Source: Prostheceraeus crozeri (taxonomy: Eukaryota; Platyhelminthes; Polycladida; Euryleptidae). Taken from it: a DNA stretch of 64,000 bases. Below, one piece after another: positions 36,111 to 54,332 of this stretch. The DNA lies in contig CAJQUW010004462.1 of assembly GCA_907163375.1 (NCBI GenBank), positions 306,001 to 370,000 on the forward strand, given 5' to 3'. A program made the position numbers and the translations under genes. The notes under the pieces were generated by a model, which did not search any database, had not been told where the DNA came from, and saw nothing but the letters and a program-made list of their open reading frames with translations. The first letter of the stretch is position 1, and every line of letters begins with the position of its first letter.

Positions 36111-36155
36111 ATTGTCCAATGAGGATCATCATCCAATGAGAATCAAGCATTTCTT

Positions 36156-36163
36156 TATAAATA
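36156..36163 (+). promoter_or_regulatory. TATA box of the left-end spliced gene
   Basis: tataaata lies about 112 nt before the ATG exon at 36,268-36,270. A CT-rich tract at 36,226-36,241 lies between. Transcription would start near 36,185-36,190. Confidence 0.7.
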
Positions 36164-36267
36164 GCGAGCCTTCCACAGTGAGAATCATTCCATCGTTGAA
36201 TCACACGAGTGACGGACGCACATTTTCTCTCTCTCTCTCTAGTTCCCTGTTCTATTATCCAACTAAA

Positions 36268-37043
36268 ATGGTAAGTCGCTACTTCCCTCCCTCTCCTCCC
36301 TTGAACGTAAACTTAATACAATCTTTTTTCATTTTCAGGCATCTACTCCATCTGCTGCACTAGTAGGACAAAATGGCGGTCAAACGTTACAAGGTTCGCT
36401 ACGGTCAGATCATCTACAACTGAGGCCAGTGGAAGAAACAACCAAGGTACATAATCCTACACCGCTACAGCGTAAATTTAAACAAGCCTTGCGTTATGAT
36501 GATCATAGCGTAGTACTCCAAACGGGAATGCTCCCTTCCACGGATGTCAAGATAATGCACAATCAGTATGGGGACTACATACTGATCCCCGTGAGTCCGT
36601 ACATTCGCCACCAACTTGATATTATTGAGGAGTACGTGACATTAAATATGGACATTCCTACTCCTCTTGCTCAAGAGTGGAAGGCGAGAGATGACAAGGA
36701 TACTCCCTATAGAAAGATTTGGGATGGTAATCACATTTGCCTACCGGTATCACATTGGTGTACTTACTATAAGAAGGATGGAGATCCTTCAATACCCATC
36801 AGATGTGATGAGCTCGGAGAAGGTACTTGGGATATCCTTTTCAAAGTGAATGGGCTATATTATGGTCGACACAAGGATAATAAAATAGCCTCTCTCTCCA
36901 TGCATATGGAATCCATCCTATATATTCCGAAACCACCCAACGTGGACGACATAATTGATCAAATCCTTAACAGCAGTGGTACGAAGCGCAAGTCGGAGAA
37001 GAATGCTACATCAAAACGCAAATCAAAGAAGGAGAATTGCTAG
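36268..37043 (+). CDS. Spliced Polinton left-end protein of unknown function, ATG-only first coding exon
   Basis: The open frame from about 36,429 lacks an ATG. It is open back to a 3' splice site, ttttcattttcag, ending at 36,338. Sixty-eight nt upstream is atg|gtaagt (36,268-36,273). Splicing 36,268-36,270 to 36,339-37,043 gives 235 residues in one phase-0 frame. The product is mixed alpha/beta with a GTWDILFKVNGLYYGRH segment near residue 172 and a C-terminal lysine-rich nuclear-localisation-like tail (KRKSEK...KRKSKK). Its place next to the terminal repeat and its TATA box suggest an early DNA-binding or replication role, which is inference only. Confidence 0.7.
36271..36338 (+). other. 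68-nt intron after the ATG
   Basis: It begins gtaagt and ends with a pyrimidine-rich tract and cag. It separates the start codon from the rest of the coding sequence, the same arrangement as in the polymerase gene. Confidence 0.75.
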
Positions 37044-37077
37044 TCCTTTCCTAACTCTACCCTATGACAATTCGCTT

Positions 37078-37203
37078 ATGTGCTTTGAGTGTCGTAGACG
37101 TGGTCTTATTAGATACATTTTACTTCTTCGTTGCCATCATATCATTTGTGTATTTTGTCGTGAAAAGCATCGATGTAATTCTTCATTTTGTAATATGTTA
37201 TAG
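37078..37203 (+). CDS. Small RING-like Cys/His protein
   Basis: From the ATG at 37,078 the 41-residue frame has the spacing C-x2-C-x12-C-x-H-x2-C-x2-C (CFEC ... CHHIICVFC) and then two further Cys. That is the first half of a RING/treble-clef finger. The same spacing occurs in the larger protein at 38,287-38,610, so the two may be paralogues. An upstream exon may exist because the frame is open to 36,955. Function unknown. Confidence 0.4.
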   Translation: MCFECRRRGLIRYILLLRCHHIICVFCREKHRCNSSFCNML

Positions 37204-37237
37204 AACGTTTCCTTAGATGTGTAAATTTCCGTTTTAG

Positions 37238-37786
37238 GCTTCTATCATCATTTTTATGGATTGTGAGGGTGAACCTGTACAGGAGCTCAGTGCTATTGCT
37301 ATGAACAATTGGACATATCAGATTGTTAGTGTCTATCATCAACATGCCAACTGCGATCCCAATGTTGATCAATGGGCGAGAAAACACATTCATGGACTTA
37401 ATCTGAAATATTTGCAAGACTATGGCTTTTCTTGTGAAAGTGCTCTTCTTATTGACTTTAAACGATGGTTAGCTGCTTTCAATGTTATACGCATCTTTTG
37501 TAATAATCCTGGTAAGGAGAGGAAAGTATTTCCCAATCTAATCATTGATGATATTTTGCTCCCGCCTTGGGATAGTAGAGTGAATCAACATTATCATGAA
37601 GTCACGAAACGTTTTAAGGATTTGTGTGTTCCTATTTTGTCTGTTCGTTGTAGTAGCTACGTTCATAACCAATGCTTCTTTCCTCCTTACCTCAACACTG
37701 CCAAAGTCCTGTATGGTTATCATTGCTCGCTGTATGATAGTTATCAGCTGTATCTATTTTATCTCTTTCAAACCATTGATTTATAA
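37238..37786 (+). CDS. DEDDh-type 3'-5' exonuclease-like protein
   Basis: ATG at 37,256 gives 176 residues. The frame is open back to a splice acceptor, gttttag, ending at 37,237, and using it adds a hydrophobic strand (ASIIIF) directly before the motif-I residues D-C-E. A C-terminal H-x4-D (His156, Asp161 counted from 37,256) suits motif III of DEDDh exonucleases, and IHGL plus NNPGKE in between suit the intervening strands. The weak spot is motif II, where the usual Asp is not obvious. The acceptor exon begins gcttct, like the gcatct acceptor of the left gene, so it may use the same ATG leader exon. A role in proofreading or end processing during element replication is inferred. Confidence 0.5.
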   Translation, partial: ASIIIFMDCEGEPVQELSAIAMNNWTYQIVSVYHQHANCDPNVDQWARKHIHGLNLKYLQDYGFSCESALLIDFKRWLAAFNVIRIFCNNPGKERKVFPNLIIDDILLPPWDSRVNQHYHEVTKRFKDLCVPILSVRCSSYVHNQCFFPPYLNTAKVLYGYHCSLYDSYQLYLFYLFQTIDL

Positions 37787-37873
37787 TGCATGCTTGTTAC
37801 CGTTATTCAATAAATGTTACTATGAGAAGAGTTGTTGTTTTCATGCAATGGATGGGTTAGATAAAGGGCGATC

Positions 37874-38284
37874 ATGTCTTTCTCAAACGACTGCGGAACA
37901 TTACGTTTTCATAGGCAAAGTTTAAAAGGAGCTGTTCAAGATTATGTGATAAAATTTCATAAAGATGAGACCGACATCGAAGCAGTGGTCGATGATGCTA
38001 GCACTCTATTTCTAGAATTAATGAATACATTCTCTGATAGCATTATCATGGCGCGATTAGTTGCGAAAATTAAGTTTAGTCATTTTGGAAAGCAAGAGGT
38101 GGAAAGTCGCTCTTTCCATTTTGCTTCTTACTCAATGGAAGTGGTAGATCACCCCCAAGAATTTTTTAAAAGACATATGATAAAAATTGCTGAACGTCTT
38201 AACGCATTTAACCATCATGGTAGCAGTCTAGTGATTGAAGCGATTTCAGATATTCACATTCAACTTTCCTTAAAGAAAAATTGA
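37874..38284 (+). CDS. Stand-alone homologue of the polymerase N-terminal domain
   Basis: This 136-residue protein resembles residues about 130-240 of the element's own polymerase. Both have MARLVAKIKF/MKALIYLKIKY, then an FHF/FHI strand, EVVD followed by a helix, and a closing block where VIEAISDIHIQL parallels IFDGIESALFKISL. In the polymerase this domain lies between the zinc fingers and the DCESQC region. A separate copy suggests a subunit or accessory factor that shares a partner or DNA-binding surface with the polymerase. The start ATG at 37,874 is the first in frame. Confidence 0.6.
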   Translation: MSFSNDCGTLRFHRQSLKGAVQDYVIKFHKDETDIEAVVDDASTLFLELMNTFSDSIIMARLVAKIKFSHFGKQEVESRSFHFASYSMEVVDHPQEFFKRHMIKIAERLNAFNHHGSSLVIEAISDIHIQLSLKKN

Positions 38285-38286
38285 AA

Positions 38287-38610
38287 ATGCAGTGGTACTT
38301 GATTGTAGCACAACTGGTTTTCGAGCTATGTCTGCTCACTCTCGAAGTATATTCCTTCTGTACATGTGTCTATTATTTAGAAAAGGCTAGCAAATTCATA
38401 TCTTCAAAAAGACTTGCTATAGACATCAGTAACGGTGAAACTATGTGTTGCGATGTATGTAAGCGAAAGGATGGAAATGAAAAGCGCATCTTCAAGAGAT
38501 GTAAGCATGCTTTTTGTCAACGCTGTTTCATACGTAATTGCATTCAACTTTGCCAATGTAACCACTGTGATATTGCTCATTTCGAGTGTCACTTATGTCG
38601 CAATAGTTAG
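38287..38610 (+). CDS. Membrane-anchored RING-like protein
   Basis: From ATG 38,287 (2 nt after the previous stop) the 107-residue product starts with a hydrophobic helix of about 25 residues (YLIVAQLVFELCLLTLEVYS). It ends in a Cys/His-rich finger, C-x2-C (CDVC), then C-x-H-x2-C-x2-C (CKHAFCQRC), then CQCNHC and CHLC. This fits a RING-type ubiquitin-ligase finger behind a signal anchor, a layout used by several viral membrane E3 proteins. Activity is not shown by sequence alone. Confidence 0.55.
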   Translation: MQWYLIVAQLVFELCLLTLEVYSFCTCVYYLEKASKFISSKRLAIDISNGETMCCDVCKRKDGNEKRIFKRCKHAFCQRCFIRNCIQLCQCNHCDIAHFECHLCRNS

Positions 38611-38615
38611 TACCT

Positions 38616-38623
38616 ATGCAAAT
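38616..38623 (+). promoter_or_regulatory. ATGCAAAT late-promoter-like motif
   Basis: atgcaaat followed by gtgg, 46 nt before the ATG of the basic core protein at 38,662. One of six such motifs before capsid-module genes. Confidence 0.45.
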
Positions 38624-38661
38624 GTGGTAAAGATAGGTTTTAGCAAAGACTAATACGGAAA

Positions 38662-39018
38662 ATGGCGAAACGTAAAATGACGAAACGTAAAAGTCAAAAG
38701 TTTTCTTCAGCCATTCAAGCTCTCCGACGAATGAAAGCAAATCAGCGATACAATGCTATACGACATGCTAACGATAAATTCATTTGTGAAATTATTTCTC
38801 ATGTGAGGAAGTTGAGGACGAAGAAATTAGCGCCAAAACAACGAAAGTTACTTAAGCGATATGCTACGAAATTGCGTTTCATCTCCAATCCTAAAGTCAC
38901 CCTTCAAAGAAAGAGGAAAACTCTAACACAAAAGGGCGGTTTCCTTTCAGCAATACTTCCAATGATAGCTCCTGCCGTGGGCAACCTATTGGGTAATATC
39001 TTTGGCTCTAAGCGTTAA
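38662..39018 (+). CDS. Basic core protein with C-terminal hydrophobic segment (adenovirus pX/pVI-like)
   Basis: This 118-residue product is very rich in K and R over its first 95 residues. It ends with a short glycine-rich amphipathic/hydrophobic segment after a double glycine (KGGFLSAILPMIAPAVGNLL). Small basic proteins with a GG-type cleavage site and a membrane-active segment are typical of adinto-like and adenovirus cores and are usually processed by the virion protease. Here the residues before GG are only a partial match to the adenain consensus. It lies directly upstream of the ATPase gene. Confidence 0.6.
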   Translation: MAKRKMTKRKSQKFSSAIQALRRMKANQRYNAIRHANDKFICEIISHVRKLRTKKLAPKQRKLLKRYATKLRFISNPKVTLQRKRKTLTQKGGFLSAILPMIAPAVGNLLGNIFGSKR

Positions 39019-39020
39019 TT

Positions 39021-39028
39021 ATGCAAAT
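39021..39028 (+). promoter_or_regulatory. ATGCAAAT late-promoter-like motif
   Basis: atgcaaatgttg lies 29 nt before the ATPase start at 39,050. Confidence 0.5.
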
Positions 39029-39049
39029 GTTGAATCTCAAAGTAATAAA

Positions 39050-39667
39050 ATGGATTTCAGACTTCAATGTGATAAAGTTCTGACTGTATCAGGTCCATCT
39101 CATGCAGGTAAAACTGTTTTCACGCTGAATTTATTGGATAAAAGAAGGGAGTTGTTTAAGGAACCTATCAATCGAGTGATTTGGTGTTATGGTATTTATC
39201 AACCGTCCCTGTTTCAGGAATTGCAAAGTCGCAACTTTATTCGACATGAAGGAATTATTCCAGTGGATAAACTTCAGTCTAATGATGTTGTTGTATTGGA
39301 TGATTTATTAAAAGAAAGTAAGAATTCAAAAGATGTTACAGATATGTTCACTCGCGCAGCACACCATAAAAGGTGCTTTATCATCTATATCACACAAAAT
39401 TTGTTTCCTGATGGAAAAGAAGCTCGTACACGAAACCTGAATACACACTATTATGCTATTTTCAAGAATCCGCGAGATAAAAGTCAATTTGAAATTTTAG
39501 CGCGACAAGTTGCACCCAGAGGATCAAAAGCCTTAATTGAAATTTTTCAAGCAGCTACTGAAAAACCATACGGTTACTTATTCATTGACTTTACGCAAGA
39601 GTGTCCGGAAGAATTTAGATTTCGAAGTGATATTTTGAAAACTCCCATGATTATCTACAAACTATGA
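39050..39667 (+). CDS. Polinton genome-packaging ATPase (FtsK/HerA-type, A32-like)
   Basis: The first ATG of the frame (39,050) gives 205 residues. Walker A is GPSHAGKT near residue 16. Walker B is VVVLDDL near residue 83. A conserved polar residue follows at the end of the next strand (IIYITQN). This length and motif order match the packaging ATPases of Polintons and adintoviruses, which pump linear DNA into the capsid. The gene is intact. It overlaps the next start by ATGA at 39,664-39,667. Confidence 0.92.
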   Translation: MDFRLQCDKVLTVSGPSHAGKTVFTLNLLDKRRELFKEPINRVIWCYGIYQPSLFQELQSRNFIRHEGIIPVDKLQSNDVVVLDDLLKESKNSKDVTDMFTRAAHHKRCFIIYITQNLFPDGKEARTRNLNTHYYAIFKNPRDKSQFEILARQVAPRGSKALIEIFQAATEKPYGYLFIDFTQECPEEFRFRSDILKTPMIIYKL

Positions 39668-40356
39668 GTTCTTATTCTCGCATGATTGTTATTCCTCAGG
39701 ATGAATATGTACAATTGACTGCCATGCAGCAAGTAAAGCAACCTCTTGCAAATCAAATGTATAGGAAAGAAATAGATTATCAGCAAAATGTTCACATCAA
39801 AGATCCACATCGTGCTGTATTATTACAATCGGAAACTGTTGAGCAATTGAAAAACTTGAAGAATAAGATGCGTGACTCTGTATCGACTGCTACACCTTTA
39901 GCATCTCGCGCACATGCCATATCTCTTTTCAACAGTATTGAACCCCATCTCAATGTAAATGATAGAGGAGAAATCATTACAGATGAAAATAAAGTGATTG
40001 ATGCTTCACGTTATGAAGACTTGATTCAGTATGCGACACGTAGAAAGCGCCGTCAGGGCTATGTTCCACCTGGTTGGTCATACTTTCTTAAACTATTGAA
40101 AAAGCATAATGTACCAAAATTTGCTTTAAATAATGAGACATTGAAAGAACTTGATTCAACAGTGGCTACTACTCCAATGCCTCAGGCGATGAAAATGCCA
40201 ACAAATTGGTTTAAGACGTCACCTGCTACATCCCCTCCCACACTCACTAAGCAAACAAGAGGAAGAACTCGACGTAGATCTACATCGCCACTAAAACTGG
40301 TAAAAGGAAAACGTAAAACAGCTCCTCCTAGGAAATACATGTTCTCAGACTATTAA
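39664..40356 (+). CDS. Conserved Polinton structural-module protein of unknown function
   Basis: This 230-residue protein starts in an ATGA overlap with the ATPase stop. It opens MIVIPQDEYVQL, has a central helical part, an RRKRRQGYVPPGW block near residue 130, and a basic serine/proline-rich C-terminus ending in KYMFSDY. Proteins with this IPxxEY opening lie between ATPase and integrase in many invertebrate Polintons, as I recall, but no function is assigned. The PPGW segment and basic tail would suit a capsid-associated DNA-binding role, which is inference. Confidence 0.65.
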   Translation: MSSYSRMIVIPQDEYVQLTAMQQVKQPLANQMYRKEIDYQQNVHIKDPHRAVLLQSETVEQLKNLKNKMRDSVSTATPLASRAHAISLFNSIEPHLNVNDRGEIITDENKVIDASRYEDLIQYATRRKRRQGYVPPGWSYFLKLLKKHNVPKFALNNETLKELDSTVATTPMPQAMKMPTNWFKTSPATSPPTLTKQTRGRTRRRSTSPLKLVKGKRKTAPPRKYMFSDY

Positions 40357-40357
40357 T

Positions 40358-40573
40358 ATGAAGCAGATGTGTTGCTTGCCATGTAATGAGCCGCCAGAGG
40401 TGAATGTCGTTGTCACTTGCACTTGCTGCGCCAGCTCTCATAATGAAACCCCTAAGCAATGTGAACACGATCGCAAAACCGCTAAAGCTAAATGCTGCAG
40501 TTGTTGTAAATGTAGAAAGGCAAGAAAACAAAAAGATGAGAAGGAGGAAAAAGAGTCAGCCGTCATCGACTGA
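40358..40573 (+). CDS. Small cysteine-rich protein overlapping the integrase start
   Basis: The ATG follows the previous stop by one base. The 71-residue product has about 15 Cys, with pairs and clusters such as CCLPC, CTCCASS and CCSCCKC, then a lysine/glutamate tail. The frame overlaps the 5' part of the integrase ORF in another frame. Such density could bind zinc. It could also be a chance frame across the true integrase N-terminus, but the position right after a stop and its own ATG favour a real gene. Confidence 0.4.
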   Translation: MKQMCCLPCNEPPEVNVVVTCTCCASSHNETPKQCEHDRKTAKAKCCSCCKCRKARKQKDEKEEKESAVID

Positions 40574-41624
40574 ACGTTTGAAGTCAATCTATTATGATGT
40601 AAAACATCCGGCAGGATTTGCATCTATCAAGAAATTATCAAAAGCGAGTGGTCTTCCACAATCACAAGTGAAACGATGGTTAAAGGGTCAGGCTACCTAT
40701 ACACTCCACAAACAAGCGAAAAAGAAGTACCGCACCCGCCATTATATTGTTCATGACATCGATGAACAGTGGCAAGCAGATTTGTGTGATGTTGCCTCCA
40801 TTTCAAAACATAACTCGGGCAATAATTTTATTTTAACCGTCATTGATATTTTCTCGCGTTATGCGTGGGCTCAACCTTTAAAAACTAAAGAAGGGAAAGG
40901 AGTAGCAAAAGCATTCCAAACAATTTTTCGAGAAGGTCGCATTCCAAAAAGAATTCAGAGTGATCAAGGAAAAGAGTTTGAAAATCAGCATGTGACAAGA
41001 TTATTTGAGAGGCATGACATTGAGTTGTTTAGTGTAAAGAGCGCTTATAAAGCTGCACTCGTTGAACGTTTTAATCGCACATTAAAAAATCGCTTGTGGC
41101 GACATTTTACTGCCAACTTGACACAAAATTGGACAAAGGTTCTACAAGATACACTCCATGCCTACAATCACTCTATCCATCGTTCTATTGGACTCAGACC
41201 AGTAGATGTAAATGCTGACAATGTAGATAAAGTGCGCGAATCATTCCAACGTAAACGCACTCATGTGAAAAGTGATGTGAAAATTGGCGATAAAGTTCGT
41301 ATCTCAAAAGTGAAAAGTGTTTTTGCTAAAGGGTACCTCCCGAATTGGACAGAGGAGGTATTTACAGTATCAAGGATTAATCAAAAAGACTCTCCGACCA
41401 CCTACAAGTTGAAAGATTACGATAATGAAGAAATTGAGGGTAGCTTTTACCGCGATGAGATTGAGGTAGTCACTGAAAGTGAAACATATTTGGTAGAGAA
41501 AATCATTCGATGTAAAAAACGGCAAGGTGAAGAATGGTGTCTTGTTAAATGGACTGGTTATCCTTCAAGTATGAACTCTTGGATGCGTCGTGCCGACATC
41601 TTTCATCTAAGTGATCGACAGTGA
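40536..41624 (+). CDS. Polinton integrase (retroviral DDE type) with C-terminal chromodomain
   Basis: Counted from the ATG at 40,404, the residue order is as follows. A basic helix-turn-helix-like segment lies at 50-95 (SGLPQSQVKRWL). The catalytic core has Asp in WQADLCD, Asp in IQSDQGKEF and Glu in ALVERFNRT, giving the D,D-35-E pattern. An SH3-like segment follows (KIGDKVRISKV), and a chromodomain forms the last 45 residues (YLVEKIIRCKK ... WCLVKWTGY). The start is uncertain. I prefer the internal ATG at 40,536 because upstream codons overlap the Cys-rich gene; ATGs at 40,404 and 40,443 are alternatives. It cuts and joins element ends, giving the 6-bp duplication. Confidence 0.93.
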   Translation: MRRRKKSQPSSTERLKSIYYDVKHPAGFASIKKLSKASGLPQSQVKRWLKGQATYTLHKQAKKKYRTRHYIVHDIDEQWQADLCDVASISKHNSGNNFILTVIDIFSRYAWAQPLKTKEGKGVAKAFQTIFREGRIPKRIQSDQGKEFENQHVTRLFERHDIELFSVKSAYKAALVERFNRTLKNRLWRHFTANLTQNWTKVLQDTLHAYNHSIHRSIGLRPVDVNADNVDKVRESFQRKRTHVKSDVKIGDKVRISKVKSVFAKGYLPNWTEEVFTVSRINQKDSPTTYKLKDYDNEEIEGSFYRDEIEVVTESETYLVEKIIRCKKRQGEEWCLVKWTGYPSSMNSWMRRADIFHLSDRQ

Positions 41625-41627
41625 TTC

Positions 41628-41635
41628 ATGCAAAG
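41628..41635 (+). promoter_or_regulatory. ATGCAAAG late-promoter-like motif
   Basis: atgcaaagttg lies 38 nt before the pVI/pX-like gene at 41,666. It is the likely promoter for that gene and perhaps the capsid and protease genes behind it. Confidence 0.5.
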
Positions 41636-41665
41636 TTGTAACTAACAATGTTTAGGGTTTGAGCT

Positions 41666-42121
41666 ATGAATCCAACTGCCTCATTTTATTCACGACCCTC
41701 CTATGTAAGTGGCGGAGGACAAATTTACATCGGCGCTCGCCGCCAACGTGGAGGTAGCATACTTGGTGCACTGAAATCTGTTGTAGCACCTCTCATATCC
41801 AATGTCGGTAGATCTTTAAAACGAAATGTTTTAAGTAATGCCGTTGGCTTTGCTGGTGATGTTGCTAGTGATCTTTCCAGAGGTAGAAGTTTTAAGAGCA
41901 GTTTGTTGAATCGTGGGAAGGAACGCGGTTTAAAAACATTGAAGCAGACCATTGCTGGTGTTACTCAAGGAAAGAAATCACCTAAACGAATGAAAAAAGG
42001 AAGGAGGAAACATCGCGGAGCTGGTAAGGTGCGATCTTCAGTCAAAAGGCATTCACGCAAACGTCGCAGAGGCTCTAATCATTCATCAGGCGCTAAACGA
42101 CGACGCTGCTATAACTTCTAA
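41666..42121 (+). CDS. Minor core protein, adenovirus pVI/pX-like
   Basis: This 151-residue protein has a short N-terminal part followed by a QRGGSILGALKSVVAPLISN segment. That is a double-glycine site before an amphipathic helix, as in the membrane-lytic part of adenovirus pVI. Next comes an alanine/glycine-rich helix (NAVGFAGDVASDL), and the tail is very basic (KKGRRKHRGAGK ... RKRRRG). The gene position directly before the capsid gene is typical of adinto-like elements. It is probably a cement or DNA-condensing protein cleaved by the protease at 43.4-43.9 kb. The capsid ATG follows its stop by 2 nt. Confidence 0.75.
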   Translation: MNPTASFYSRPSYVSGGGQIYIGARRQRGGSILGALKSVVAPLISNVGRSLKRNVLSNAVGFAGDVASDLSRGRSFKSSLLNRGKERGLKTLKQTIAGVTQGKKSPKRMKKGRRKHRGAGKVRSSVKRHSRKRRRGSNHSSGAKRRRCYNF

Positions 42122-42123
42122 TC

Positions 42124-43401
42124 ATGGAGTGTAAAACTTCCGGTTTTTGTTTGTTCGATCAACAAGCCATACAGACAGATATTCTTAGTTCAAGTATTGT
42201 AGATTATCATCCTCGAACAGCTGAGAATGCTGGCCCCATTGAATTTGTTATTCCTGGTGGTAGTGATGACTACATAGATTTGAGTTATGCGATGCTTGAT
42301 TTGAGGTTTAGAATTCAGCAAGCAGATGGAACTGCTATTGACGATGCACATAAAGTTGGACTGAACAATTTACCATTGACTACATTACTTCGTGATGTTT
42401 CTCTAACGATTGGAGAGCAGCAGGTGGAAGGTGGTCAAAGCGATTATCCCTATAAATCATATTTCAATCATGTATCACAGTTTCATCCAGCAGCACAAAA
42501 AAGTCATATGGAAGCCATGGGATGGTACAGAGATGAAGCAGGAAAATTTGATGTTGAAACAAACAGTGGCTTTGTAAAGCGATCTGCTATGATTAAAGAT
42601 AGTAGAGTATGTCAGCTATATGGTCCGCTGAATTTAGACTTCTTTAGACAGTCAAAGTTTTTACTGTGTAATACCAGCATGCGACTCAAGCTGACATTGA
42701 ATAAGCCTGAATTTGCGCTGAATGCATTTGCTAAAGTTGACAATTTTAGAATTCATGTGGAAGATATTGCACTTTACATTCGTCGAGTAGTACCGAATCC
42801 AAGTGTCATTAGAGGGCATGCTGAAGGCCTTAACCGCCAAAATGCCATTTACCCCGTTCAGCATACAAAGCTTCTCACCTTTACAATTCCGAAAGATCAA
42901 AAGAGTTTCATGAAAGATGGCCTCTTTCCATCGGAAGCACCGAAGCTCCTCATGGTGGCAATGGTTGAAAATGATGCATTTAATGGTAATATAAAGAAGA
43001 ATCCTTTCAATTTTAAACACAATCAGTTAAGTGAAATTGCTTTACGTGTAAATGGTGTGAGTCATCCTGGTCCACCCTACAAACCAGATTTTGCTTCGGA
43101 TCAATTTATGCGCAGTTATGTTGATTTTATGGATGTCTTTGGCTTTTACAATACGGATGACACCAACGGACTGACTATGAAAGAGTTTAAGAGTGGATAT
43201 ACTATTTATGCATTTGATTTGACTGCTGACAGCGATATTAGTGCACCCTATCGTCAAGCGAACGTGCCTCATAATATTCGTTTGGATTTGACGTTCAAAA
43301 GAACACTACCTGAGACGATCAATGTATTAATTTATGCAGTCTTCGATTCAAATATTGAAATTACAAAGTATCGTGACGTGATTCTTCAGTATAATCGTTA
43401 A
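42124..43401 (+). CDS. Major capsid protein, double jelly-roll (hexon-like)
   Basis: The 425-residue protein is intact. It shows the conserved opening of Polinton capsid proteins: a DQQAIQTDI segment, then ENAGPIEFVIPGGSDDYIDL near residue 35, then LLRDVSLTIGEQQVEGG near residue 96 and a YPYKSYF block. The second half has HTKLLTFTIPKDQKSF near residue 246 and a strand-rich end. Length and position between the core protein and protease genes fit. Trimers would form the faces of an icosahedral virion. Its stop overlaps the protease start (taatg). Confidence 0.93.
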   Translation: MECKTSGFCLFDQQAIQTDILSSSIVDYHPRTAENAGPIEFVIPGGSDDYIDLSYAMLDLRFRIQQADGTAIDDAHKVGLNNLPLTTLLRDVSLTIGEQQVEGGQSDYPYKSYFNHVSQFHPAAQKSHMEAMGWYRDEAGKFDVETNSGFVKRSAMIKDSRVCQLYGPLNLDFFRQSKFLLCNTSMRLKLTLNKPEFALNAFAKVDNFRIHVEDIALYIRRVVPNPSVIRGHAEGLNRQNAIYPVQHTKLLTFTIPKDQKSFMKDGLFPSEAPKLLMVAMVENDAFNGNIKKNPFNFKHNQLSEIALRVNGVSHPGPPYKPDFASDQFMRSYVDFMDVFGFYNTDDTNGLTMKEFKSGYTIYAFDLTADSDISAPYRQANVPHNIRLDLTFKRTLPETINVLIYAVFDSNIEITKYRDVILQYNR

Positions 43402-43862
43402 TGAGTTGGTTGACTGCTGACGATATTAAGACTAAAGTGCAGCGTAATGCAGACGAAGCGACGTTGAAAGCTTTCGATAATGTCTATTCACTCGATACCT
43501 TACCACCTGCAGTAAATCACTATCCCATCTTTATTGTGCTAAACACTCATTCACAGAATTTAGGCGGTGAGCATTGGAAAGCGATCTTTATTGGAGAAGA
43601 CCGACGTGGTGAACTATTTGACTCTCTTGCTCAACCTCCAAATATACCAACACAGCAGTGGTTGAGAAAACATACGCGTCAATATCAGCGAAATGAACGC
43701 ATACTACAACATCCACTTTCATCAACGTGTGGTGCTTTTGTACTGTACTTCATCTTAAAACGTTTACATGTATCTCGATTTGCATCTGTTATTCAAAACT
43801 TTTCATGTAATCCATCCTCTAATGAAAAAATGATTTGTAAGTTCTATCATGATTTGAAATAA
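43401..43862 (+). CDS. Adenain-like virion cysteine protease
   Basis: The 153-residue protein has His in GGEHWKAIFI (near residue 58), an acidic residue in ELFDSL (near 74) and the catalytic Cys in STCGAFVLYF (near 110). That is the H-D/E-C order of the adenovirus protease family (peptidase C5/Ulp1-like). Polintons use it to mature core and minor capsid proteins. All three positions are present. Translation starts within the capsid stop codon. The stop overlaps an AATAAA signal. Confidence 0.92.
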   Translation: MSWLTADDIKTKVQRNADEATLKAFDNVYSLDTLPPAVNHYPIFIVLNTHSQNLGGEHWKAIFIGEDRRGELFDSLAQPPNIPTQQWLRKHTRQYQRNERILQHPLSSTCGAFVLYFILKRLHVSRFASVIQNFSCNPSSNEKMICKFYHDLK

Positions 43863-43893
43863 AAACATCATGTTGGAAAAATTGTTTTTTATT
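43858..43893. terminator. Back-to-back polyadenylation signals
   Basis: aataaa on the plus strand (43,858-43,863) overlaps the protease stop. aataaa on the minus strand (complement of 43,888-43,893) overlaps the stop of the TBP-like gene. The convergent transcripts thus end within about 30 bp of each other. Confidence 0.65.
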
Positions 43894-44434
43894 TTACAAT
43901 CCGCTGGGTACGTACATACTCAATGAGATAGTCTAGGATCATATTTGCTTGTACATGAGATTTTAGTCCAGTAATGATCACTTTACTATTATGAAAGATT
44001 GCCACATGCACAGGTAACCAACAACTAATGAGAGCTGCAGGAAAAAGTTCGGGTTCATAACACAAACTGTAACTGCTGGTACGAATCTTCAAAAATGATA
44101 GACTGTCACTCAATTGAGTAGAGATCACCATATTGTCCACAGTCAGATTCGACATCACACACCTCTCCCTCTTCCATATCCGACGTAGTAGTCTTTGTAG
44201 CTCTAAGCGCATTGACTGCGCCGATGAATGAGAAAGGGCGCCGAGAATCTGTACAGTCCCATTTGGGAAGAGTTGAAGATTCCGTGAATTGTTCATCTTC
44301 ACCACTAACATTTGAGGACGGCCCGGGTAATACTTGCTGTTTGGAAGCTGTTGGTGTAATGTTGTGAGATCGATTTTGGTGTAGAGTCTGAAGCGACGGA
44401 GAATGTTGACGATGGTGTAGCGATGGCGCTTCAT
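43889..44434 (-). CDS. TATA-binding-protein-like protein encoded by the Polinton
   Basis: The ATG at 44,434 gives 181 residues, the length of the TBP core. Two repeats are visible. Repeat 1 opens YTIVNILRRF, continues KIDLTTL and PGRPQMLVVKM, and ends LFPNGTVQILGA near residue 65. Repeat 2 has VDNMVIST, then the TBP signature YEPELFP and IFHNSKVIITG. By eye three of the four DNA-kinking Phe positions are kept (LF in repeat 1; ELF and IF in repeat 2); the first is lost. The frame upstream to 44,578 is open but overlaps the neighbouring gene and lacks TBP similarity, so I chose 44,434. TBPs nucleate transcription by bending promoter DNA. It lies inside the capsid module on the opposite strand. 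I am confident of the fold, not of the target sequence. Confidence 0.85.
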   Translation of the reverse strand: MKRHRYTIVNILRRFRLYTKIDLTTLHQQLPNSKYYPGRPQMLVVKMNNSRNLQLFPNGTVQILGALSHSSAQSMRLELQRLLRRIWKRERCVMSNLTVDNMVISTQLSDSLSFLKIRTSSYSLCYEPELFPAALISCWLPVHVAIFHNSKVIITGLKSHVQANMILDYLIEYVRTQRIVK

Positions 44435-44756
44435 GATGAAAGAATGAGTAAATTGAGCGATGTACCTTCCTTTTATACTTTTCCCAACTACCTTGATGAA
44501 ATGTGAAGTTAGTATGAAGTTGGGAATGATAGAGTTGAATTCGCCGATTGTTGACGCGCAGCCAGATGCGATTTCCAATACGTGAATGTCTTTTCATATA
44601 GAAGTATTTCAAGTCCTTCATGATATGATGTAGAGATTGAAAATGACGATAAGATAAAGCAAACTCTCTTCTCACATTTCCAGTTGAATCTTTGAAATAG
44701 ACGTTTCGATCATGATCCGTTTCAATACGTTGTAGGGAATCTAATTTCCAACTCAT
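44106..44756 (-). CDS. PC4-like candidate A, with a long tail overlapping the TBP-like gene
   Basis: The open frame encodes 216 residues. Only the first about 108 resemble the neighbouring protein at 44,779-45,135 (LDSLQ, FK.S.G, IM.DL.YF, IQ.YHS, WEKY, HRSI shared; about 40 percent identical by eye). This domain looks like two copies of a strand-strand-helix unit, as would be expected of two joined PC4/Sub1 subunits; that fold assignment is inference. The conserved part ends almost exactly where the TBP-like gene begins, and the remaining 108 codons run through it in another frame for about 329 nt. Either the tail is a genuine overlapping product or a splice or termination event removes it. 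Confidence 0.6.
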   Translation of the reverse strand: MSWKLDSLQRIETDHDRNVYFKDSTGNVRREFALSYRHFQSLHHIMKDLKYFYMKRHSRIGNRIWLRVNNRRIQLYHSQLHTNFTFHQGSWEKYKRKVHRSIYSFFHHEAPSLHHRQHSPSLQTLHQNRSHNITPTASKQQVLPGPSSNVSGEDEQFTESSTLPKWDCTDSRRPFSFIGAVNALRATKTTTSDMEEGEVCDVESDCGQYGDLYSIE

Positions 44757-44778
44757 GATGTGTGGTAGTCATGTCTGA

Positions 44779-45135
44779 TTAAGATTTGCATAGTAGGGCG
44801 ATGAACTCACGACGAATAAATGTCATGATGGAGCGATGTATATATCTTCTATACTTCTCCCAATTGTATTTGCGAAATGAGAAACAGTTTGCGGAATGAG
44901 AATGGTAGATTTGAATTTCATTTCTGTAATGTTGAAGCCAAACTTGATCACCCAAGGAGATGAATCTTAATGTTTCAAAATATTCCAAATCCCTCATGAT
45001 ATCATTGAGGTTGACAAATTGTCGCCATGTTAATGTAATTCCTCTTGATGTATGACCATGAGAATTTTTGAAATGTACGTTTCCATCACGATCAACTCTG
45101 ATATATTGTAGAGAGTCCAAAATCCAAGTCTTCAT
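44779..45135 (-). CDS. PC4-like candidate B, tandem paralogue
   Basis: ATG at 45,135 gives 118 residues, nearly all the domain shared with candidate A, ending shortly after HRSIMTF. Each half has a strand pair followed by a helix: NVHFKNS...ITLTWRQFVNLNDIM, and NEIQIYHS...FSFRKYNWEKYRRYIHRSI. This suggests an internal duplication of a PC4-like unit. PC4 proteins bind single-stranded or melted DNA and assist TBP-dependent transcription. Lying beside a TBP-like gene makes that reading attractive, but it needs a structural comparison. Confidence 0.55.
   Translation of the reverse strand: MKTWILDSLQYIRVDRDGNVHFKNSHGHTSRGITLTWRQFVNLNDIMRDLEYFETLRFISLGDQVWLQHYRNEIQIYHSHSANCFSFRKYNWEKYRRYIHRSIMTFIRREFIALLCKS
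44784..44791 (-). promoter_or_regulatory. ATGCAAAT late-promoter-like motif, minus strand
   Basis: The complement of atttgcat reads atgcaaat, 35 nt before the ATG of PC4-like candidate A (44,756). Confidence 0.45.
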
Positions 45136-45141
45136 GATGTT

Positions 45142-45149
45142 ATGCAAAG
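45142..45149 (+). promoter_or_regulatory. ATGCAAAG late-promoter-like motif
   Basis: atgcaaagttg lies 29 nt before the penton-like gene at 45,171, in the short gap shared with the divergent PC4-like candidate B. Confidence 0.5.
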
Positions 45150-45170
45150 TTGCAGATTAGCAATATAAAA

Positions 45171-46568
45171 ATGTCGTTTTATCATATTTTGCTTAGCAAT
45201 GCGGCTACAAAGAGATTTACTAGTAATCGAGCTGCACTCTTTTCTACTCCCATTGATCATGCACAACAGCTAAATGGAAATTGGGAAGTGGGTGTCACTC
45301 AACTTGTTTATAGCAACTGTGTCTATACTTTTGATCATGAGGTGATGACTATTAATATGAGGCGTACAGCTGCTTATCAATGTGAAAAGGGGTGCCGAGT
45401 ATACATTCCACAGTGGCCAAAGAAAGATCTCTTATCATGTAAAAAGTTTATATATGATTTCTTGAATAAAGCGAGTAAACATATTGTTCAATTTACTCCG
45501 CACAATGATGATTATAATTATGTACATCATGTAGTTGAGAAAGATTGGATTGTTGGTTTAAGTCCAAGTTTAAGAAATGATTTAGGCTACCTCGCTAGCG
45601 CCTTAACAAGCTATGATAATTTTAACGTTAATTACCACATAAGTGGTCATAAACAGTTAATATATCGAGAGGAAGCTTATTATGTAGATCTTATTCCAAG
45701 AAATGAGAAGACGTTGGTGAAGAAGATTGTGATTAAGCCAAGAAAGACAAACATGACTCCTGAAACATTATTGAAGAAATTTAATTATCTCCTTCGAGTT
45801 GATGGCAAACAAGTGGCAACATTGACTTATATTAAATCATCTAATCATATTGCAATAAGCAAATTAAATGATGATGATCTAGTATTAGTTTGTTCAAAAG
45901 ATTTTCATCAGTTCTTACGACATCGTTCTGCAGCTGTTCATGGAAAATCTGATATGCAACATTTACCATGTGAAAGGTCAAATCAATTTGATACAGAATG
46001 GACCGTATCTTTATACAGAAAGTGTGTAGAGCCTTTAGGTGGTATCTTACATGAAACAAGAGTGTTGATGCCTCGCATTATTACTTCGGTTAAATTGGTT
46101 GTAGATTATTTAAATGAAGTGATTAATGACCAACATATTTCATTTTCTGAAAAAGAAGGTACTTTGTCTCTCACTATAAGTGGAAAAGGTATTGAACTAA
46201 TTATGGATAAAACTCTAATGGACATTTTGGGTTTTGATCAAAATATCTTTAAAAGTGGTACTGTAACCAAAGCTAGCGCAGACATGTCGCTATCGCGTCG
46301 TATTAACTATTTTCAGATATATTCCAATATTGGTGAAGATGTACGTGTGGGAGATGTTGAAGCTCCATTGCTAGCAATGATACCATACCAGCCAAAGAGC
46401 TGCAGTATTTTATCTGAGCATACTTTCAAGAAAGTGCATTATACAAAGCTGAAATCAAACTACATCCCACAAATTGATATTGCCATTTATGACGATGCTG
46501 GTGCGTTGATTCCTTTTCATAAAGATGCTGTGACAAGTATCACACTCCATTTCCGAATGAAGAGTTAA
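45171..46568 (+). CDS. Penton-like minor capsid protein 1
   Basis: ATG at 45,171 gives 465 residues. The N-terminus (FYHILLSNAATKRF ... LNGNWEVGVTQL) is the conserved opening of a large group of Polinton proteins. The C-terminal 90 residues carry the widely shared QIYSNIGEDVRVGDVEAPLL block and end in a LHFR strand. These features mark the minor capsid (vertex) protein family of Polintons and adintoviruses. The next gene is a paralogue with the same beginning and end. Confidence 0.75.
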   Translation: MSFYHILLSNAATKRFTSNRAALFSTPIDHAQQLNGNWEVGVTQLVYSNCVYTFDHEVMTINMRRTAAYQCEKGCRVYIPQWPKKDLLSCKKFIYDFLNKASKHIVQFTPHNDDYNYVHHVVEKDWIVGLSPSLRNDLGYLASALTSYDNFNVNYHISGHKQLIYREEAYYVDLIPRNEKTLVKKIVIKPRKTNMTPETLLKKFNYLLRVDGKQVATLTYIKSSNHIAISKLNDDDLVLVCSKDFHQFLRHRSAAVHGKSDMQHLPCERSNQFDTEWTVSLYRKCVEPLGGILHETRVLMPRIITSVKLVVDYLNEVINDQHISFSEKEGTLSLTISGKGIELIMDKTLMDILGFDQNIFKSGTVTKASADMSLSRRINYFQIYSNIGEDVRVGDVEAPLLAMIPYQPKSCSILSEHTFKKVHYTKLKSNYIPQIDIAIYDDAGALIPFHKDAVTSITLHFRMKS

Positions 46569-46575
46569 TGCAAAC
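46568..46575 (+). promoter_or_regulatory. ATGCAAAC late-promoter-like motif
   Basis: The motif overlaps the previous stop codon and lies 40 nt before the preferred start of the second penton-like gene at 46,608. Confidence 0.4.
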
Positions 46576-46607
46576 GTATGCTAATATATTTTTCCAATGT
46601 GAATAAT

Positions 46608-48128
46608 ATGGAAAGTGAAAATAAGGACTCGTTTCTAATCTACTTGCCCAGTAATGCTTCTATGAATAAATTTCCCAAAAATAAACCATCAGACTATCGA
46701 GTAGAATTAAATCGGCCACTGCATTTAGAAGGTGAATGGGAGGTTGGCGTTTCTAGTATTTGCTATGATAGCAATATTCAGAATGTGAATGATTTGGAAG
46801 AAATGATATTGACTCCTCGCACCCATGATGGAATAACGATGAATAATGCATTTCAGTTCCCATACAATTTAACATCAGATGGAAAGTGGAACTATGAATG
46901 GATTCAGATAAAATCAGATTCTTATGAGCCATTTGGGAATGAGAAAATTATTAAGGCATTCAACAGTGGTAATACTTCCATCATGAAGAATAAAAATCAG
47001 AAAGCTTATGAGTTTACTATCTATCATTGGAGTGGGAGACAGTTCCTCCGCTTTCATTCTTTTACTAAAGGTCTTACGCTGAGGTTGGATAGTGAATTCT
47101 ATCCACATCTTGGTTTTGGTCATGGACTACATCTAACGTCAATTGCTACTGCAAATGTTAAAAAAGTTTATTCAAATCGAATCAACAAATTTCATTATAG
47201 ATTTAAAATATTTGATGAAGATGTTGTAGAATGCGAAGAACGCATCATTTTGAAAAAGCGTGGTGTTCAACCTTTATCACTTATTGAGTTAGTAAAACGA
47301 TGGAATGAGACTGTGGGTAAGAAGTATGGAGAAAAAATTATGGCGGACAAAAATAAGTTGGTTATTCAGAAATATAATGACAAACTTACAGTTTATTTCT
47401 CTCCAACCTTGCGTCATTTTGTAAGACATTATACACCTATTATTGGAAGCGGTGTGGTGTATGCTTCTCATGAATATCACACTAAAGCTGATTCAGTTAA
47501 TGATGAATGGTGGGTGGACATCTATGGCGATCGCATCAAGAAAATTTACCAGTCTTATGAAGAATCTAAAGTTGCTATCAATATAATGCCGCGTCTATAT
47601 CATACAGTTGAAAGCTTCATTCATGTAGTAAATCCTTATATACAACAGAAGTTGAAGCATGTGATGAAAAGTAAATATGATGTAAAGACACACCACATTT
47701 CGTTTTCAATTGAAAATCAACGCGTTGTTCTGAGACTGGGTGATGACATTCAATGTCAATTGAGTAAAAATTTGAAAAAACTCTTTGGTTTTTCAATGCT
47801 ACAAACAGTGTTTGCTGCTGCGCATACGATTGGTATAGAAACACCAATGACACTTGATAAACATGAACAGCACCTTTACATTCAAAGTGATTTGATTCTA
47901 CCTATTTCTGTTGGTGAGAAAAAAGAATACATTTTACGCGATTTCATTCATGATAAAGACGCTTCATATGGAATAGTCGAGAAGATGTTTGAATCTATTT
48001 TCTATCATCCCGTCGTCAAACAAACTATACCCTCTATTGCTATCAAAATTACCAATGGTTTACAAGAGTGCATCCACGTGAAAGATACTAAATCCCTCAT
48101 AACGTTAGTGTTTCGGAAAACAAAGTGA
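46608..48128 (+). CDS. Penton-like minor capsid protein 2
   Basis: ATG at 46,608 gives 506 residues; an ATG at 46,578 in the same frame is the alternative. The opening FLIYLPSNASMNKFPKNKPS ... LEGEWEVGV parallels the first penton-like gene. The end also parallels it (LYIQSDLILPISVG ... SITLVFRKTK in place of the RVGD/LHFR block, more diverged). The middle regions differ. Two copies may supply different vertex or receptor-binding parts of the capsid; that division of labour is inference. Confidence 0.7.
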   Translation: MESENKDSFLIYLPSNASMNKFPKNKPSDYRVELNRPLHLEGEWEVGVSSICYDSNIQNVNDLEEMILTPRTHDGITMNNAFQFPYNLTSDGKWNYEWIQIKSDSYEPFGNEKIIKAFNSGNTSIMKNKNQKAYEFTIYHWSGRQFLRFHSFTKGLTLRLDSEFYPHLGFGHGLHLTSIATANVKKVYSNRINKFHYRFKIFDEDVVECEERIILKKRGVQPLSLIELVKRWNETVGKKYGEKIMADKNKLVIQKYNDKLTVYFSPTLRHFVRHYTPIIGSGVVYASHEYHTKADSVNDEWWVDIYGDRIKKIYQSYEESKVAINIMPRLYHTVESFIHVVNPYIQQKLKHVMKSKYDVKTHHISFSIENQRVVLRLGDDIQCQLSKNLKKLFGFSMLQTVFAAAHTIGIETPMTLDKHEQHLYIQSDLILPISVGEKKEYILRDFIHDKDASYGIVEKMFESIFYHPVVKQTIPSIAIKITNGLQECIHVKDTKSLITLVFRKTK

Positions 48129-48240
48129 AGTCTTTATACAACATTTATTGAAATATGTACATGAATGTGAAGCAATAGACTTTATACAACATCCACTGAA
48201 AATATATACATGAGTGTACTTCAATAAACATTGCTATATA
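48129..48240 (+). repeat. Imperfect tandem 50-bp repeat after the penton-like genes
   Basis: ctttatacaacat(tt/cc)a(t/c)tgaaa(a)tat(g/a)tacatgagtgt occurs twice in tandem, followed by caataaa near 48,222, which could serve as the 3' end of the penton-like transcripts. Confidence 0.6.
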
Positions 48241-48289
48241 CAAAAAGTCTTTTTACTTCGTGAAGGGTGGAAATATACAGGGATAGGAA

Positions 48290-48425
48290 AAATGTCTTTC
48301 AGTGGAAAAGTCATCACATGGGGAATGTACAGATGTGGACACATATTCACAAGGAAAAAACAATCTCATGCGATACATAAAACAACAATGTTTATCTACA
48401 GAAATCAACATCAAAATACTAAGTT
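48290..48425 (+). pseudogene. Frame-broken zinc-finger relic similar to the polymerase N-terminal finger
   Basis: One frame reads RCGHIFTRKK and, after a one-base shift, the next reads NNLMRYIKQQC, preceded in that frame by GECTD-like codons. The polymerase N-terminus has ECADCGHIFTRKWDLTRHIKRGVC. The same finger is therefore present here on the opposite strand, broken by a frameshift and with a missing Cys. It may be the remains of another zinc-finger gene that once lay beyond the polymerase 3' end. Confidence 0.45.
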
Positions 48426-48433
48426 AAGGATGA

Positions 48434-51400
48434 TTATGCTAAGACGTCTCCTGAATGTGGTAGTGTGAGTTTAATTCTTTTGGGTGGTGGTATGTTTGTG
48501 TCAGGATGTCCATGTGGAAGAGATATGTTGTGTTCTAGCCAGCACCTCTTATCCTCCCATGCTGAAAGCGCCCGTTTCCTAAAAGTATGAGTTTTGATCT
48601 CATGCGACTTAGATTTTAAGATTGTCATATTGACAAACGTTATATTTTTATTTCTATAGGCTTTCCTGAAATTCTTATGTTTCATGTTAGAGACCAATGA
48701 TCTTGATATGCCTTTAGCGCGCTTAATGCTATCATCACTATCCTTTAATTTCATAGAATACATTTTAGGGCGGAGGAGAATCATTTCAGCTATCTCCTTC
48801 CCTGCTGTCTCATCCTTAAAGCAGCCAAGTTTTGCCTTATTTTTGATGGAGTATAGTGGATGATCAGCAGGATAATTTGATGTATCAAAATATCTTTCTA
48901 AAGATTTTCCTACTTCATTAAAATTTAAATCTTTTTGAGTGGTAATACCTAAAAAGAAACTATCTGTGTCACCACCCAACAAACGAACCTCTTTTACGAG
49001 AGGACACGGTTTTAGTATTTTATAGAAGAGTTGATACATTTCAAGCTTGGAGTAATCTAGAACAGCTTGACCAATATAGATGGGTTTGCACAACTCAACT
49101 TCAGATTTTATCATTTTAATACCTACAAGATCCTCATCGATTATGTCTCTATCGATGAATAGAGGTGATGAGGTCAATTTGTGATACTTTTGATCATCAT
49201 TAACTAGTTTGTAGTTTACGCGCTTTCTAACATCCTCCATCGTCTTACCAAATAGACTGTTGTTCTTATATTTATAAAAATCTTTTTCAAAATTATTTTG
49301 GGCTAGTGCACGTTTCTGGCTGTTACTATCTATGTAGGGTTTGAGGAAGGCTTTCTGTCTAAATTTAATAATGCGGTGAACTCTTTTTAAAATCATGCCC
49401 ATTTCTAAATAAAATTTTAAGATGCTAAAGTGGACTAGATAGTTTTCTTTATCATATTGAGTGAGCAAAAGTTTGCGGCAAGGCTTATACTTGGGTTGTC
49501 CACATGATTCTAAATCTTTATGAAATTGTTTCATAAAGTCGGAAAACATATCTTTACTCACTTCACCTGATTCGGGTGCGAGTGGAAAATCTACGGTTTT
49601 ATGTTTAATATTATTTGGATAGATTAGATCTATCTCAAAATAATATCCCCAATCACCTTGATCTGGAATTGCTAGTATGTTGGAAGGGTTGGAGAAATGT
49701 TGAATTTCACTATCATCTAACCAGCTAAACTCAGAGTGAGGTAGCGGTTTGGATAATGAACTACCATACAAATTATTTTGGTCATAATACTTAAGATGAG
49801 TCTGATCATCGCCTACTATTTTTGATTTTAACCTATGTTTATTTACAAATGTGAGACCACCGCGAATTCCTCGCTCAAATAAATTATACATCTCTGGATC
49901 TTGTAAGAGATGAATGGTCTCACCAGTCATTTTAAAAGCAGACTTAAATGACATGGCTGGTAGACTGACAAAGTGGACGGGATCTAACTTATCTTCTTCT
50001 AATGCCACTCGTCGAAACTCCTGAAATACATCAGCCAGCAAAAATACATCTAACTTAAGATAGGCAATCATATATTCGCCAAATGTATGGCAGTCAAATT
50101 TTATCCATGCATCTTGTGCATGTTCATAATCTTCGGTCTTACATTCTGCGCCGATCAAATCATTTTTAAATTTATCTATGGGTGGAAGAGAAGTCTCGCC
50201 GAGTTTACTAATCGCATCAAAATATGCATATGGAAAGACTCCTTTCCGTGTGATGACTTCATCGGTTAGATTTGGATATTGTTTCTTAAGATTTTGTGTT
50301 AGTGGAAGAGACTTTAGATTTTGTACGAGAGAGGCCAGTGATGCAGTCATAAATTGGTAGGAATCTAAAAATTTTATATCAAAATAGACCGTCTTATTTT
50401 CTTTAGTTTTATCGACAGGCACTTTTGCTGTCATGGCCATAAACTTCTCTCTCGTTTGTGCTATTACATCAAGCTTCCACTCTTTCATTTGACCTAAACC
50501 TCCTTTTATTATCATATGGCTATCGTAGCCCTTGAAATTATGGAAAATGACGGGTAATGTACGCCGTTTCATCCTAAGTGAAAAATTGCATTTTGAACAT
50601 AGTGCGTTTCTAAATTTACCAGTGATGTGATCATGGTCGCGCACTTTCTTAATCTTATCATCATCAAATGTTTTCCTACATTTGGGGCAAACGTTGCAAC
50701 TATCAAATTTTACTTGATCATCTGCTGTCATATGCAATGATCTGCGATAGAGTTCACCATCATACTTTTGCTGAAATTTTACAGCCTGTTTGAGGAATTG
50801 TAGGAATTGGTAAATACAATCCTCACCTTGCCAGACGTGCATTTTATTTTTTCTATTTTGGAAATGGTCATGCCATACTTCATAGCAGGAAATGGCTGCT
50901 GGTCGATGGATGTTATCATCGATATAACATTCGATGTCAGCATAGATGACACGAAGAGGACTTAGTTCATCGCCATTCTCTCTATATGAAAACTCCTTAT
51001 CTTTGGGCATGCGTTCCATTTGCAGTTTACCTCGCTTACACCACTCATAATGAGTTTCAAATTTGTTTTTACTCCTAAAGTTCCGAATGCATCTGTCACA
51101 GTAATAAATCTCTGATGAGGTAGAATTTCTTAAGTGGTGGTATAAGCGAGAAATTTTGGGAATGCCGCAGTAGTGCCATTCCTCACTATCATCCTGTCTT
51201 ACTAATAAAAGGTTGACAACGTGGTCATAACAACTCGAACGCGAGTTGTAGCGCACACCCTTCAATCCCTTTTCCCAAACATGGAGAACTATTTTAATGT
51301 TGTTCAATTTTTCAAATTTTTCTATATCTTTAATTTTCATATCGTCACTATTACAGTCATCGAAGTTTAATTCATTCTCCCACTGCCTATAGCTATATGT

Positions 51401-52408: not shown

Positions 52409-52512
52409 TTTAATGAAATATGATCAGACAGAATAATAGTCAAAGAGAGAGATCGTGCGATCGTCACTTTTATGATTCACAGATTAAATGAAATGACATG
52501 AATGTCACTTTG

Positions 52513-53071: not shown

Positions 53072-53075
53072 TAAA

Positions 53076-54330: not shown

Positions 54331-54332
54331 TT

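Follow-up and report, generated by a model that had tools for sequence, protein, structure and literature searches.

A Maverick/Polinton element with a gene for a TATA-binding-protein homologue that keeps a predicted TFIIB dock and departs from human TBP in its N-lobe

Background

The TATA-binding protein (TBP) helps to start most transcription. In the available portions of the literature, virus-encoded TBPs are recorded from large DNA viruses, that is giant viruses and mirusviruses, with those of the herpesviruses as distant mimics. A TBP gene is reported in a giant virus (PMC11464507), in mirusvirus-type elements (PMC10675990) and in 59% of mirusvirus genomes (PMC10132985), and the mimics of beta- and gamma-herpesviruses (EBV BcRF1, MHV-68 ORF24) use a TATT box at late genes (PMC4893493) and act together with other viral proteins, six in all (PMC7498053). 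As far as the accessible text of PMC7221094 goes, a TFIIB-like protein accompanies TBP in almost all TBP-bearing viruses, poxviruses excepted, two Glu residues (E284 and E286) contact TFIIB, the first of them (C.L3.2) is kept in only ~40% of viral TBPs, and the regulator-contact signature has been lost from viral TBP N-lobes.

The 181-aa TBP-like protein described here is encoded in a stretch of 64,000 nucleotides, hereafter the window, within a Maverick/Polinton element. Like the herpesvirus mimics it is a virus-encoded TBP-like protein, and their noncanonical TATA-like element at late genes, served by host Pol II (PMC4893493, available part), may have its parallel in the placement of the heptamer ATGCAAA, known from the DNA sequence. 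The mimics are only distantly related to TBP, whereas the 181-aa protein has a significant Pfam TBP match and lies in a transposon-like element. With the TBPs of double-stranded DNA viruses it shares, as predicted from its sequence, two lobes, largely kept DNA contacts and lost N-lobe regulator contacts, but those viruses, in the accessible text of PMC7221094, mostly have a TFIIB of their own and diverged Glu residues, whereas here both Glu are kept and none of 28 ORFs with a length of 100 aa or more matches TFIIB. Mirusviruses, set beside the element by description, likewise encode a TBP as viruses of eukaryotes, but they are large (one genome of 431.5 kb in the portion available of PMC10132985) in comparison with a 28-kb integrating element. 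The cellular TBP paralogues TLP and TBPL2, both outside the four-reference tree given below, are altered TBPs with altered promoter choice, as proposed here for the Polinton protein, but they are cellular genes.

The element itself shares with the Mavericks/Polintons of PMC8097293 the integrase, the inverted repeats, the (AGT)2//(ACT)2 ends and 6-bp duplication that are reported for vertebrate Mavericks, and protease-, ATPase- and PolB-like ORFs, whereas neither TBP nor the orfA/orfB pair is named in the gene set of its available part. The accessible portions of PMC10675990, PMC10132985 and PMC11464507 report no TBP in a Polinton or Maverick, subscription literature lying mostly outside the search, and TBP as a term is absent from those of PMC11071296, PMC11071308, PMC10120064 and PMC10328495. 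A viral TBP is of a known kind; this one is set apart by the Polinton setting, the kept predicted TFIIB dock and the altered N-lobe.

Results and Discussion

The element and its genes

The initial annotation had placed the TBP gene in a complete virus-like element, between the protease gene and genes that it called penton-like; the element and the position hold (Table 1). The element has terminal inverted repeats, the reported end motif (AGTAGT...ACTACT), a retroviral-like integrase and a perfect 6-bp target duplication, the left border reading GTTGTC followed by AGTAGTAAG and the right border CTTACTACT followed by GTTGTC; these are features of a Maverick/Polinton. The TBP gene lies between the protease-like ORF and a pair of paralogous ORFs, the candidates for the penton-like proteins, with two more minus-strand ORFs intervening. 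The outer arms of the inverted repeats (34520-34932 and 61898-62310) are 100% complementary, and such near-identical repeats together with the open ORFs suggest that the insertion is recent.

Table 1. Positions in the window of the element, its genes and its promoter-like motifs
Feature	Position	Strand	Remarks
Complete Maverick/Polinton, 28,106 bp	34322..62427	.	inverted repeats; ends AGTAGTAAG...CTTACTACT
Left 6-bp target-site duplication	34316..34321	.	GTTGTC; end sequence
Right 6-bp target-site duplication	62428..62433	.	GTTGTC; end sequence
Small basic ORF	38662..39018	+	adenovirus core protein X (Adeno_PX), E 0.0025, weak, under cut-off
Packaging-ATPase-like ORF	39050..39667	+	Pox_A32, E 0.022, under cut-off; phrog ATPase, 0.005; weak matches
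rve integrase, C-terminal chromodomain	40404..41624	+	Pfam rve, 1.3e-10; Chromo, 6.4e-07
Probable major capsid protein, 425 aa	42124..43401	+	263 proteins at E<=1e-10, including itself
Adenain/Ulp1-like protease	43401..43862	+	Peptidase_C48, 0.0012; Peptidase_C5, 0.043; both under cut-off
Viral TBP, predicted, 181 aa	43889..44434	-	ATG to TAA; Pfam PF00352; 61 homologues; AlphaFold2 model
orfB	44445..44756	-	conserved part of 216-codon ORF 44106-44756, which overlaps the TBP ORF in another frame
orfA, 118 aa	44779..45135	-	directly upstream of orfB and TBP
ORF, 465 aa, possible virion protein	45171..46568	+	paralogue of 46608-48128
ORF, 506 aa	46608..48128	+	paralogue of 45171-46568
PolB-like ORF, 1266 aa	48434..52234	-	N-terminal C2H2 fingers; endonuclease VII-like stretch
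ATGCAAA	38616..38622	+	46 nt upstream of 38662 start
ATGCAAA	39021..39027	+	29 nt upstream of ATPase ATG (39050)
ATGCAAA	41628..41634	+	38 nt upstream of 41666 start
ATGCAAA	44785..44791	-	35 nt upstream of orfB start
ATGCAAA	45142..45148	+	29 nt upstream of 45171 start
ATGCAAA	46568..46574	+	40 nt upstream of ATG 46608; 10 nt upstream of first ATG 46578
TATAAA (in TATAAAAGG)	44472..44477	-	candidate TATA box; starts 43 nt upstream of TBP start codon

The ORF at 42124-43401, which we take to be the Polinton major capsid protein (MCP), has no match in Pfam or PDB. It has a weak PHROG match to a late promoter regulator (E 0.0047), probably by chance, and one homologue (P0069, 86% identical) is an NCBI protein of a Pseudomonadota MAG (AAGK05_12265), probably through a binning error. 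The paralogous ORFs at 45171-46568 and 46608-48128 lie side by side and align over 508 columns with 22% identity (BLASTP E 2e-17); they have no Pfam match and are possibly duplicated virion proteins. In the PolB-like ORF the polymerase motifs were read by eye only; no polymerase profile was returned by Pfam (E<=10), PHROGs (0.1) or PDB (0.01), and a Pfam Endonuclease_7 match (5.2e-07) covers residues 514-552.

Identity and predicted structure of the TBP homologue

The 181-codon ORF matches the TBP family of Pfam in two stretches with an E-value of 4.9e-20 (71.6 bits against a cut-off of 22.9), and this is its sole Pfam-A family at E<=10. A sequence search of PDB returned 35 TBP chains (E 2.1e-12 to 2.3e-07) and one further, unrelated match at E 1.9, and ten TBP models of NCBIfam matched with E-values from 2.7e-18 to 4.1e-06, each below its own curated cut-off. 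This similarity is far beyond chance, and the predicted protein is a TBP homologue that lies outside the named NCBIfam subfamilies. Both TBP repeats, the YEPELFP signature and three of the four intercalating Phe had been read from the letters, and each reading agrees with the present data: the two Pfam stretches correspond to the repeats, the profile search that was to put the idea to the proof gave a significant match, YEPELFP occupies residues 126-132, and the Phe are F56, F131 and F147, with P40 at the fourth position. A canonical TATA-reading TBP has all four intercalating Phe and the Glu pair that contacts TFIIB; since only the latter is found complete in this family, we class the predicted protein as a TBP homologue but not as a canonical TBP.

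An AlphaFold2 model built on a 35-sequence alignment had a mean pLDDT of 87.7 and a pTM of 0.79. Its first half displays the full order of a TBP lobe, namely strand, helix, four strands and helix (E6-17, H23-29, strands 33-36, 42-46, 52-55 and 60-65, H69-87). The second half has the opening strand (E98-107), two strands near its end (E143-146, E151-157) and the closing helix (H160-176), whereas residues 111-140 are poorly modelled (pLDDT block means of 70, 53 and 57), without a helix matching H23-29 and with a helix at 133-139 in place of the expected strand. With a first lobe that is complete in the model and a second that is partly of low confidence and irregular at 111-140, a two-repeat saddle is likely on the sequence and borne out by one half of the model.

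Conserved and changed residues

A search of 5.8 billion proteins yielded 95 candidates, 61 of which were TBP homologues at E<=0.001; they are 34-82% identical, all have PF00352, none of the proteins is named, and they lie on contigs of up to 24,690 bp. Residues were counted in 62 family sequences aligned with human TBP (339-residue numbering). DNA-contact positions were assigned after the yeast TBP structure, L212, V220 and T222 being taken as yeast L114, V122 and T124; A184, N189, E191 and R205 were taken as TFIIA contacts, and R231, R235 and R239 as the basic helix, all in the N-lobe.

Three intercalating Phe are kept across the family (F214 62/62, F288 61/62, F305 62/62), as are the central Asn pair (N167 50/50, N257 62/62) and, in the C-lobe, V259 (62/62), P289 (62/62) and T313 (61/62). 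The TFIIB-docking pair is kept as well, E284 in 61 of the 62 sequences (one has Asp) and E286 in all. The first N-lobe Phe, F197, is replaced by Pro in 58 of the 59 members with a residue there, and further N-lobe contacts are changed from L212 to Gln (58/62), from V220 to Gln (62/62) and from T222 to Leu (56/62). The family also departs from human TBP at all seven of the presumed TFIIA-contact and basic-helix positions. Two C-lobe contacts differ as well: 46/62 members have Ala at L303, and 56/62 have Ile or Met at V311. As the N-lobe contacts are changed in nearly all members, an altered specificity is predicted; because some C-lobe contacts (L303, V311) are changed too, DNA binding could be weak.

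Such a combination could also belong to a host shut-off factor or decoy, which would titrate host TFIIB or occupy host promoters and so block host transcription, viral genes not being driven by it. A kept Glu pair next to altered N-lobe DNA contacts is what a dominant-negative TBP might have. However, a pure decoy would have no need of three of the four intercalating Phe nor of most C-lobe DNA contacts, near-invariant in the 62 sequences, and the element contains a positioned promoter-like motif (see below), so that we hold a decoy to be unlikely.

A TFIIB homologue, as encoded by viruses with an orthogonal TBP-TFIIB system, was looked for in the 28 element-overlapping ORFs with a length of 100 aa or more and was not found (limits of E 10, 0.1 or 0.01 according to the search). 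The kept Glu pair together with the absence of a TFIIB-like ORF from this set argues that the element would redirect host TFIIB and Pol II and not replace the machinery; of the earlier proposal that it redirects or replaces part of the host transcription machinery, the first half is retained and the second is dropped.

Promoter motifs

The initial annotation had mentioned a possibly distinct promoter motif, and a candidate was found in ATGCAAA, which is promoter-like and unlike TATA. Between 36100 and 53100 it occurs eight times on both strands, and six copies are located 29-46 nt upstream of a same-strand start (6 of 18 genes), the other two having no start codon downstream at that distance. 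When eight sites were placed at random, six within 20-50 nt upstream were reached in 0 of 200,000 trials. ATGCAAA ranks first of 11,784 heptamers for the position 20-50 nt upstream, as a heptamer picked post hoc in a single element, and the only other heptamers with more than two such copies overlap it (TATGCAA with four, TGCAAAT with three). For gene 46608 the second ATG was used, chosen by comparison with its paralogue; if the first ATG is taken throughout, ATGCAAA stands at 5 of 18 genes, and in 12 of 3000 draws of random windows the best heptamer scored as high. A hexamer control was weaker, its observed best count of 6 being reached in 71 of 3000 random draws. Over the whole window the heptamer is no more frequent than expected (21 copies against 22.6), and within 80 nt upstream an exact copy is absent at 12 of the 18 genes, including those for MCP, protease, integrase and PolB.

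At the TBP gene ATGCAAA is absent and TATAAAAGG stands at -43; on this sequence the promoter looks host-like. Among the TBP homologues, 11 have a reading that continues for 15 residues or more before the aligned Met, and 9 of these, all but P0028 and P0049, show Ile-Lys 13-14 codons ahead of that Met; TATAAA would yield Ile-Lys, which makes this a lead for conservation of the TATA box in relatives, although the orfB protein, which overlaps there, is another possible source.

The candidate TATA box at the TBP gene, canonical in sequence, would also suit an ordinary TBP substitute, binding canonical TATA and raising TBP dosage, with ATGCAAA serving a host POU-domain or other factor: ATGCAAAT is the POU octamer, and three of the six placed copies end in T. 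Against this stand the changed N-lobe contacts (Pro at F197, Gln at L212 and V220, Leu at T222) and the position of ATGCAAA, which is where a TATA box would be; we give a plain substitute little credence, about as much as a decoy.

Proposed function

On balance it is probable that the viral TBP brings host TFIIB and Pol II to promoters of the element with an altered specificity, probably through ATGCAAA, as a late-gene switch. Host TBP would drive the viral TBP gene early from its host-type TATA promoter. The product would then bind the element's own promoters, probably the ATGCAAA boxes, by a mostly conserved C-lobe and an altered N-lobe, whose Gln residues may accept G/C pairs disfavoured by normal TBP. 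It would dock host TFIIB through the Glu pair, so that host Pol II would be recruited at the ATPase, core-protein-like, putative virion and orfB genes, and it would escape host regulators that grip a normal N-lobe. The element would thereby possess a compact late-gene switch, comparable to the TATT-box TBP mimics of beta- and gamma-herpesviruses. The early or late timing of the genes is a guess from gene type. More tentative is the wider proposal of a Polinton lineage with a minimal switch, in which a 181-aa TBP, with its C-lobe on DNA and host TFIIB and an N-lobe (Pro for Phe, two near-invariant Gln) reading the G/C-containing ATGCAAA at virion genes, together with a TATA-driven TBP gene, would move host Pol II from the early genes to the late ones with no other viral general factor.

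The TBP fold bends DNA, and the ORF sits among putative virion genes, so that an architectural DNA-bending protein for replication, packaging or integration, and not for transcription, might be considered; this leaves the conserved TFIIB-contact Glu pair without a role and appears improbable.

If the late-gene switch is real, the earliest step of host Pol II transcription would be open to reprogramming by a small integrating virus, 28 kb long and with a TBP that has 61 relatives. This would offer a testable account of gene timing in Mavericks/Polintons, a topic absent from the available portions of the literature cited here, and changes in TBP specificity could be studied in a natural TBP whose N-lobe is altered.

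Relatives of the TBP gene

For the tree, 58 family rows (four short ones having been dropped) were combined with the TBPs of human, E. cuniculi, M. jannaschii and Sulfolobus. The viral family and the four cellular TBPs are split with 100/100 support, with branches of 2.48 and 1.9 changes per column, in a tree that is unrooted, has 15 of its 59 inner branches below 80 and includes an M. jannaschii sequence of unusual residue composition. The predicted viral TBPs are no recent copy of cellular TBPs like the four compared. A profile of the family matched archaeal TBPs of PDB best (2z8u, 1.5e-28), ahead of those of E. cuniculi (5.6e-20) and human (3.1e-17), an order that may reflect rates of change rather than descent.

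Some contigs of relatives are of equal size. TBP P0013 and MCP P0154 each lie on a 7106-bp contig, TBP P0002 and the orfA-type protein P0064 each on one of 1771 bp, and the orfA-type protein P0066 and MCP P0069 each on one of 11119 bp; for 60 of the 61 TBP homologues, no MCP-bearing contig of equal size was present among the 120 of 263 MCP matches listed. The linkage of TBP with MCP, TBP with orfA and orfA with MCP in relatives is suggestive only. Scans of viral contigs with the TBP ORF, TBP alignments, MCP, an MCP alignment, PolB and integrase confirmed no relative, nor did scans of genome contigs with the TBP and MCP alignments, and the TBP ORF had zero matches among phages, as had MCP among plasmids.

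Eukaryotic hosts possess TBP, from which a captured or degenerating host gene, functionless in the element, might derive, but the open intronless ORF with its 61 homologues, the fully supported split of the 58 family rows from the human, E. cuniculi and two archaeal TBPs and the P0002/P0064 pair of 1771-bp contigs make this very improbable.

The orfA/orfB pair

orfA and orfB are paralogues, 44% identical in alignment, and orfA has four homologues besides itself. In the homologue P0067, read by eye, an orfA-like tail runs into an orfB-like start; as P0064 and P0002 lie on contigs of one size, the order orfA-orfB-TBP may be conserved. Neither ORF has a significant Pfam match, a Nudix-type one (0.015) being under the cut-off, nor a PDB match better than E 0.19, and an internal repeat was looked for in both and not found. 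By eye, a stretch GITLTWRQF.NL in orfA/orfB is PC4-like. A PC4-like coactivator was not supported, with no Pfam PC4 match and an E-value of 0.2 in profile comparison; a full-text literature search, mostly outside subscription papers, gave nothing that joins Polinton, PC4 and transcription.

Other observations in the window

The ORF at 38287-38610 has a Cys/His-rich C-terminal half, resembling a RING-type finger by eye, and no Pfam match. A spliced gene may lie within 52-57 kb; at ~56479-56654 an exon-like stretch follows an acceptor-like TTTCAG and ends, as read by eye, in a basic KRPRV-like motif. Outside the element, an ORF pair at 17811-20071 is transposase-like by eye, with no Pfam match, and a hAT dimerisation domain is matched at 30402-30860 (3.4e-18).
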